NCBI GenBank assembly: GCA_947307225.1 | Contig: CAMZIL010000004.1 | Span: 1 to 64,000, forward strand | Direction: 5' to 3' | Length of the DNA stretch: 64,000 bases | DNA from: an uncultured Candidatus Saccharibacteria bacterium | GTDB taxonomy: Bacteria > Patescibacteriota > Saccharimonadia > Saccharimonadales > Saccharimonadaceae | Part shown: one piece after another, positions 57,839 through 59,664 of the stretch | How the letters are laid out: each line of letters starts with the position of its first letter | Position numbering within the stretch: position 1 is the stretch's first letter | Notes under the pieces: generated by a model | The model's input: only the letters and a program-made list of their open reading frames with translations | The model's database searches: none | Told to the model about the DNA's origin: nothing | Translations under genes and position numbers: made by a program

Positions 57839-58205
57839 GGGGCTGACAAAGTTTAGACGGTTTATTGACAATATGCAGGCGGGTCGAGTTGTACCGTAAG
57901 TACAGTAGTAAATGCAGAAAAATCTGCTAGTAAGCACGTGGCTTATATGCCAGCTTACGCCTAAGATCTAGATTATTCGGATCTTGTCGAGCTACTCGAG
58001 ATACCATAGGATAGCTTCGGTATCATACACTTGGTATTAAGGTTGACTTTGTGACGGTGGTCGACACGAAAATTTAGTCATGACGCTTCTTGGTTTTGTT
58101 TATTCCAGCCTTGGAGGAATGTCGAGATAAAAGAATAGACTACGCTCGTAGAATGCATATCTGGAAATTTATCGGACCCGGAGGCAGTATCCGGCAGCTC
58201 CACCA
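57839..58205 (+). ncRNA. ssrA: transfer-messenger RNA with altered T-loop
   Basis: Rescues stalled ribosomes together with SmpB. The tRNA-like ends pair (GGGGCTG with CAGCTCC, including the G3-U pair for alanine), CCA is encoded, and GACGG near the 5' end and GACTAC...GTAGAA near the 3' end match other tmRNAs. The tag frame is read from GCA at 57914 to TAA at 57962..57964, giving AEKSASKHVAYMPAYA, which ends in AYA instead of the common LAA. The T arm is CCGGA-GGCAGTA-TCCGG: its loop lacks the usual TTC. Length is 367 bases. Confidence 0.93.
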
Positions 58206-58783: not shown

Positions 58784-58812
58784 TTGACTTTTTCGCTTAT
58801 GTTTGCTATAGT
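58784..58812 (+). promoter_or_regulatory. promoter of the 58.8-kb structured RNA
   Basis: TTGACT (58784..58789), 17-base spacer, TATAGT (58807..58812). Predicted transcript start near 58819. Confidence 0.7.
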
Positions 58813-58818
58813 GAAGGC

Positions 58819-59250
58819 ATGCTTGAATAAACACAAAAACAAGCAAAAACAAACATAAAAATGGAGTGCAGGAAATGACCTAGGGATGTGAATTTGGCGT
58901 AGTGATAGCTTATTTCTAGCCATAAATTACAAACTACTAGGAGTAAGCTAAATGCTCCGCCAAAGCTTAACGAGAGTTAAGGAGCGTAGAGCGCTATAAA
59001 GATCAAAACGATACTAGCACATTGATACCCAGAAACAGAGAATCGTAGAGACTTTATAAAGGACGATGCCTCTCTATACGAGAGGCGGTCAATTTAGCCA
59101 ACAGGCAGATATAAAGATTGTGGCTCTAAGTAATGTATATATTTGCCAGATAATCCCCTCTGCCTTTGGCTTTTAAGACATATCTTGTGGGGAGAAGAGC
59201 AGTTAATACAGATAGCGACCGATACCGCTCAGAATTAGTCGTGGTTTATG
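58819..59250 (+). ncRNA. candidate long structured RNA with possible pseudoknots
   Basis: About 430 bases without a usable reading frame, led by a good promoter. Helices: TGCTTG/CAAGCA (58820..58825 with 58840..58845) at the 5' end; TTTGGCG/CGCCAAA (58893 with 58958); TAGCTTA/TAAGCTA (58906 with 58944); CTTAAC-GAGA-GTTAAG (58966..58981); ATCGT/ACGAT (59042 with 59063); GCCTCTC-TATAC-GAGAGGC (59068..59086); GGCAGATATA/TATATTTGCC (59104 with 59138); AGCG/CGCT (59214 with 59226). GCTCC (58954) with GGAGC (58981), and TTAGCCA (59094) with TGGCTcTAA (59121), would cross these as pseudoknots. It matches no RNA class I know. The 3' end is not defined by a clear terminator. Confidence 0.6.
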
Positions 59251-59295
59251 CATAAGGGCAGGATGAGGCGCATGCGAATGTGCTATAATTCGCTT

Positions 59296-59664
59296 ATGAA
59301 TAAGTTGCTACTAATTGTAAGCGCTTTAGCTGCGATGATTCTCCTTACGATGATGTTTTTGACATCTCCGAGCACAGTAGGACCCGTAGGTGTTTTAGTA
59401 TTTTTTACAACATCCTACTTGTTCTTCCTAGGGCTTGCAGTTTTCAGCTGCAGGCTGTTTTTTATGTTTCGCGGCAAACTCAACAAGGCCTGGAAGTCGG
59501 CTAGCCTAGATAAGAAGAGCTTGCGCTACGGTCTCGTGATTGCGCTCGCCCCTGTTATTTTGATGTTGATTGGCTCGTTCGGCGGCATTTCGATCGCAGA
59601 GGTTGTTTTGACGGTGTTGATTGAAGTTTTACTTTGCTTCTTGACTTCTCGTAATGTGATATAA
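59296..59664 (+). CDS. small membrane protein, four helices
   Basis: A 122-residue protein with four predicted helices (about residues 2-22, 29-52, 76-96 and 99-117) and a basic inner loop (FRGKLNKAWKSASLDKKSLRYG). It is reminiscent of the small PilC/VirB2-like helpers found near secretion ATPases, but no family can be named. TATAAT (59284..59289) ends six bases before the ATG at 59296, so it is leaderless, and the longer reading from 59248 is rejected. It lies 8 bases before the next gene, itself leaderless, and two genes before the TraG-like ATPase. Confidence 0.72.
   Translation: MNKLLLIVSALAAMILLTMMFLTSPSTVGPVGVLVFFTTSYLFFLGLAVFSCRLFFMFRGKLNKAWKSASLDKKSLRYGLVIALAPVILMLIGSFGGISIAEVVLTVLIEVLLCFLTSRNVI

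Follow-up and report, generated by a model that had tools for sequence, protein, structure and literature searches.

Between the gene for tmRNA and an operon encoding a small membrane protein and a VirD4-like ATPase, the DNA analyzed here (64,000 nt of a contig from an uncultured Candidatus Saccharibacteria bacterium; hereafter, the window) contains some 430 bases in which the original prediction saw a promoter, many helices and no reading frame. Do these bases encode a functional RNA, and what might such an RNA do? Known families provided no answer. Rfam 15 returned no match at gathering or relaxed thresholds (nothing credible lay over the RNA when thresholds were relaxed), and a literature search found no publication on the RNA. 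SRP RNA and 6S RNA signatures had been reported as missing, and indeed RF00169 was unmatched across the genome and RF00013 was unmatched at the locus. No conserved reading frame spans the region, in keeping with the earlier reading. The predicted fold of positions 58819-59250 has an energy of -117.2 kcal/mol, compared with -91.4 +/- 5.0 in shuffled sequences (z = -5.1). The consensus promoter noted at the outset is a real feature of the locus, kept alongside the RNA across the genus. The elements discussed below are as follows.

57839-58205, plus strand: tmRNA (Rfam scan), the usual upstream neighbor, used as a synteny marker.
58784-58812, plus strand: sigma-70-type promoter, TTGACT-17-TATAGT with TG before the -10 box (sequence and genus alignment).
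About 58819, plus strand: predicted transcription start, from the promoter position.
58820-58845, plus strand: 5' hairpin UGCUUG/CAAGCA with an A/C-rich loop; by eye, a hairpin with a similar loop recurs in most genera and families inspected.
58863-58883, plus strand: possible Shine-Dalgarno GGAG (58863-58866) and two-codon ORF AUG ACC UAG (58875-58883), weak in this genus.
58893-58964, plus strand: 5' domain closed by helix P1 (58893-58899/58958-58964; alignment and covariation).
58907-58919/58937-58949, plus strand: hairpin P2, inside the 5' domain.
58916-58931, plus strand: candidate antisense element CUAGCCAUAAAUUACA, a complement of the start of infA (IF1); its loop part, from 58920, is predicted to be unpaired (probability at least 0.94).
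58966-58981, plus strand: P3, a GAGA-capped hairpin that varies among genera, with double changes in 6/6 pairs.
58984-58994, plus strand: P4, near-invariant GCGUAGAGCGC (alignments).
58995-59058, plus strand: P5 (58995-59001/59052-59058) and P6 (59009-59012/59042-59045) which surround the conserved UAGCACAUU...ACAGAG; every pair shows double changes.
59068-59091, plus strand: P7 hairpin (GCCUCUC/GAGAGGC) and, after it, GCGGUCA; of all signatures this one is conserved most widely, across the order.
59097-59170, plus strand: P8, P9 and P10, which form the 3' domain; its internal loop (5' G / 3' GAU at 59149-59151) is conserved.
59284-59289, plus strand: TATAAT box, 6 nt ahead of the downstream gene's ATG at 59296 (sequence).
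59296-59664, plus strand: small membrane protein, followed by p162 and the VirD4/TraG-like ATPase; a synteny marker, outside the RNA.

A DNA search at E <= 1e-12 placed the RNA in 36 of 37 same-genus genomes (the window's own and 35 of 36 others); the exception, genome G028 (81% complete), had only a weak match, at the promoter. Covariance models built for the 5' and 3' domains extended the RNA to other genera of the family, and a broader model reached two further families of the order. The gene order L20, IF3, usually ComM, tmRNA, RNA, small membrane protein and VirD4-like ATPase holds at almost every positive locus, and the two non-syntenic matches have the lowest two bit scores. When weak matches were checked by gene order, all those fetched, up to E 0.016 (about 0.02), proved syntenic. 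Another 20 genomes, drawn from ten genera and ten families, were inspected at the syntenic position; in 18 of them the signature hairpin with GCGGUCA lay beside the downstream operon. The GCGGUCA signature is absent at the locus in one genome (G050, L123), and one locus (L128) was left out of the count because its sole match was GCAGTCA, about 400 nt before the VirD4-like gene. The RNA was not found in the remaining phylum sample, and the phages searched, as a possible origin, gave no match to it. Where the genome collection names its records, they belong to Candidatus Saccharibacteria, and most come from ruminant gut. Models and synteny converge on one locus across Saccharimonadales.

Covariation provided an independent view of the fold. 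In an alignment of 38 homologues made from sequence only, 90.9% of cells pair in P1-P3 and P5-P10, and 41 of 63 pairs show double changes. Double-change cells numbered 383, far above the 127 +/- 11 observed in shuffles and the 80 at most observed when partners were slid. A model-fitted alignment gave 97.2% pairing cells in the 3' domain, with double changes in 15 of 21 pairs. Many of the helices first proposed are therefore real, including the GAGA-capped hairpin, which corresponds to P3 and covaries. Of the two proposed pseudoknots, the first (58954/58985) is nearly invariant and has just 2 double changes; the second (59104/59138 with 59094/59121) is contradicted, as only 55-62% of its cells pair and P9 and P10, which occupy the same positions, covary strongly. 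The G/GAU internal loop was recovered by a motif scan in 53 of 85 loci, compared with 3.4% in shuffles, although its strict form is not universal. In part of the genus, P6 encloses AUUAGAUACCC (59018-59034), a sequence identical to the 16S rRNA 790-loop motif; the window itself carries the shorter AUUGAUACCC at these positions and the sister genus has no such motif. As only part of the genus has it, we treated this resemblance as coincidence.

A structured RNA does occupy the extent first proposed, 58819-59250, but its structured part stops near 59170-59200 and not at 59250. A real structured RNA therefore spans window positions 58819 to about 59200. The 3' end is uncertain in the window's genus because a clear terminator is absent there (12 of 35 loci, with 8.6 expected). 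Other families have a terminator-like hairpin after the RNA at 7 of 8 loci (1.4 expected), and in f18 the count is 2 of 2. Promoter and terminators, both read from sequence, may point to transcription independent of the neighboring genes. The RNA is probably a transcribed, free-standing non-coding RNA of Saccharimonadales, an order of ultrasmall parasitic bacteria. With no Rfam match, no publication found, conservation at the same place and compensatory changes, the suggestion of an undescribed RNA is supported. Its distribution is order-wide.

What would it do? Across the window's genus and its sister, g27, the P2 loop CUAGCCAUAAAUUACA is near-invariant; no other element of the 5' domain varies less, even though the predicted fold leaves the loop unpaired. 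Over 16 nt, it is complementary to the start codon and short 5' UTR of the unlinked infA mRNA. A genus-wide pattern search for the complement of the loop, restricted to exact matches with no further mismatch allowed, identified a perfect 16-nt second copy in nine genomes of the window's genus. In all nine, this second site is the infA start (sense strand UGUAAUUUAUGGCUAGUC, which includes the AUG). The search gave no second site in 21 of the 30 genus genomes having the RNA; because the search was exact, infA in these genomes either differs by at least one base or is absent from the assembly. A -10 box lies about 15 nt upstream, giving a predicted leader of ~10 nt without a Shine-Dalgarno, all of which the loop pairing would cover.

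Since the pattern search itself selected the infA copies of the window's genus, their invariance is biased. As a control for this bias, infA was located by homology in two further genera. It is AGUAAUUUAUGGCUAGUC in G248 (g27), complementary to the loop at 15 of 16 positions, and of 7,265 candidate start regions it forms the strongest duplex, barring the antisense strand of the RNA gene itself. In G328, from a third genus (g52), infA (UUGUAGUUUAUGGCUAAUC) and the RNA loop (GGUUAUCCAUAAACUACUA) form 11 contiguous pairs, one mismatch and then five pairs, ranking infA 2nd of 5,394 start regions. Relative to the window's genus, two pairs in G328 have changed on both sides: a leader A-U pair has become G-C (leader A to G, loop U to C), and a codon 3 G-C pair has become A-U (codon 3 G to A, RNA C to U). 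With a wobble, the older loop too forms a good duplex with infA of G328, and two in-loop variants identified by eye, in G015 and G176/G221 (CCAUGAAUUACA, CCAUAGAUUACA), are A-to-G changes that keep G.U pairs.

Exact 15-nt matches to the RNA occur elsewhere in a genome by chance, and G248 contains two others. The complementarity of other RNA segments was set aside in G248 and G328 as chance-level matches only, and a 16-nt match of one such segment in G328 seems to lie inside a coding region. The case for an antisense role is instead built on the identity of the gene, the position at the start codon, the use of the same loop and the repetition across three genera. An accessible region complementary to the start of an unlinked mRNA across taxa, as is expected of a trans-acting antisense sRNA, is thus present in three genera. 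Our literature search found no RNA of such kind for infA. At two loci (L293 in G023 and L294 in G011), the start of a small membrane-protein ORF (GUAAUUUAUGGCUA) beside an aquaporin-like gene is also largely complementary to the loop, and may represent a minor second target.

As the P2 loop matches the start of the infA message, the RNA probably controls the amount of IF1. We therefore favor, at a probability of roughly 0.6, a trans-acting antisense RNA that controls IF1 synthesis, possibly tied to translation status. In the window's family the RNA carries an added 5' domain, in which hairpin P2 presents its loop unpaired; this loop would pair in trans with infA mRNA over its ~10-nt leader, AUG and next codons, making the start codon inaccessible to the 30S subunit and thereby setting the level of the initiation factor. 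The order-wide 3' core (P7, GCGGUCA and P8-P10) would serve as a scaffold, probably as a protein-binding site.

In other families the RNA has shrunk to ~150 nt, mostly with its own promoter and a terminator-like hairpin, and comprises a 5' hairpin with an A/C-rich loop, P7 with GCGGUCAGUC, a long 3' hairpin and the terminator-like hairpin. Because these compact forms lack the P2 domain, IF1 control cannot be the ancestral function, and the compact form implies that the RNA had an older one. The compact forms, together with a conservation that is widest in the 3' core and not in the antisense loop, are what would be expected of a housekeeping structural RNA at the core of an unknown ribonucleoprotein, with the infA complementarity coincidental or secondary. 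An unusual ribonucleoprotein is conceivable in these bacteria, since neither SRP RNA nor the Ffh M domain is detectable in them. This explanation leaves unaccounted for an unpaired loop that varies less than any other part of its domain, and whose complementarity to the infA start recurs in three genera, with double changes at two pairs; we consider this explanation unlikely.

At each of the syntenic loci inspected, including those that have lost ComM, the RNA lies immediately upstream of the membrane protein and VirD4-like operon, and terminators follow it in several families, as they might if it were a cis-acting leader (an attenuator or riboswitch-like element) of that operon. However, gene order is generally conserved in these reduced genomes, inspection revealed no antiterminator or sequestered Shine-Dalgarno, and many loci show a separate -10 box for the downstream gene, 6-7 nt from its ATG and past the terminator where one is present. 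A TATAAT-like box occurs within 22 nt of the downstream ATG in 59 of 85 loci, mostly 6-7 nt away, and this proximity suggests that the downstream gene probably has its own leaderless transcript. A cis-acting role is accordingly improbable. That the RNA is a divergent SRP RNA or 6S RNA can be dismissed almost entirely: it is single-copy and order-wide, SRP RNA (RF00169) was undetected in 61 genomes of the order (0/61) and 6S RNA was over the cut-off in 0/21, but the SRP protein Ffh was also undetected (M domain 0/21, controls 14/14), a sub-threshold 6S-like gene occupies a different locus, beside rnpB, in G038, RF00013 is unmatched here, and there is no Rfam similarity and no SRP domain IV motif to be seen.

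The possible tie between the antisense RNA and translation status comes from a tiny ORF ahead of P1. In g27, a Shine-Dalgarno-led AUG ORF stopping within 25 nt of P1 is present in 63 of 72 distinct leaders, compared with 1.8 expected from shuffles; the window's genus has a weaker signal (15 of 43, 3.1 expected), and only in g27 do Shine-Dalgarno, start and in-frame stop occur together beyond chance. Several compact forms inspected by eye have no start codon at the corresponding place. Without requiring a Shine-Dalgarno, 69 g27 leaders contain an ORF of 2 to 12 codons, encoding 60 different peptides whose last residue is Pro in 33, Thr in 22, Lys in 13 and Glu in 1. Where the stop lies exactly 3 nt ahead of P1, as it does in 46 of these ORFs, the last residue is always Pro or Thr, and no column outside the ORF region was found to covary with the choice between them. 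In E. coli, C-terminal Pro slows termination, and Thr is avoided before stop codons across bacteria (PMC7246954). In the sister genus, slowly terminating ribosomes might therefore sit against the antisense domain, at a stop usually following Pro or Thr beside P1, so that translation status would feed back on IF1. The fuller proposal, that an order-wide RNA family turned in one bacterial family into a translation-sensing switch, with ribosomes pausing at the Pro/Thr-stop ORF to control loop-infA pairing, is tentative, and we are inclined to doubt it more than to accept it.

The proposed antisense RNA resembles several known systems in part. Like trans-acting sRNAs that cover start codons, it is a predicted free-standing transcript with an accessible seed loop and a target initiation region encoded elsewhere; it differs in its length (about 380 nt), its many covarying helices, its order-wide, single-copy presence at a fixed locus, its predicted target, a universal factor, and the tiny ORF of some genera. 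It shares with uORF and leader-peptide regulators (for example, candidates in PMC11109978) a Shine-Dalgarno, a very short ORF and a stop beside a regulatory structure, and ribosome pausing that may switch folding is a common theme; here, however, the peptide is unconserved, with only the Pro/Thr-stop and its spacing kept, and in several families the RNA is followed by its own terminator, not by a regulated ORF. OLE, GOLLD and ROOL are likewise large, ornate, conserved RNAs from uncultured or gut bacteria, whereas this RNA had no match in Rfam scans and is chromosomal, vertically inherited and shorter, with a predicted mRNA target. The neighboring tmRNA (RF00023) shares a ribosome-linked theme, Pro-stop stalling, but is a separate gene, and the RNA has neither a tRNA-like domain nor a tag ORF.

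A structured RNA shared across an order, and apparently overlooked by annotation, would represent a new RNA family; it comes from the Patescibacteria, a large share of bacterial diversity whose gene regulation is little known. A dedicated RNA regulator of the near-universal, essential IF1 would be unexpected and, if the feedback is true, would constitute an RNA feedback loop on global translation initiation. The model is directly testable, because Saccharibacteria are now genetically tractable through natural transformation (PMC10633639).

Our searches also generated observations beyond the RNA. The whole signal recognition particle is apparently absent in these Saccharibacteria, where searches for the SRP GTPase domain gave weak P-loop matches only; ffh and ffs are likewise reported as lost in Parcubacteria (PMC4508563). 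The 6S RNA candidate of G038 (L253, 1501-1654), sub-threshold yet well aligned, adjoins RNase P RNA. Contigs of many draft genomes end about 10 kb from the RNA, which hints at a repeat (perhaps an rRNA operon) at a fixed distance. Finally, G221 (L078, L079) and G348 (L086, L087) each contain two differing copies of the RNA and operon, and are perhaps mixed assemblies.
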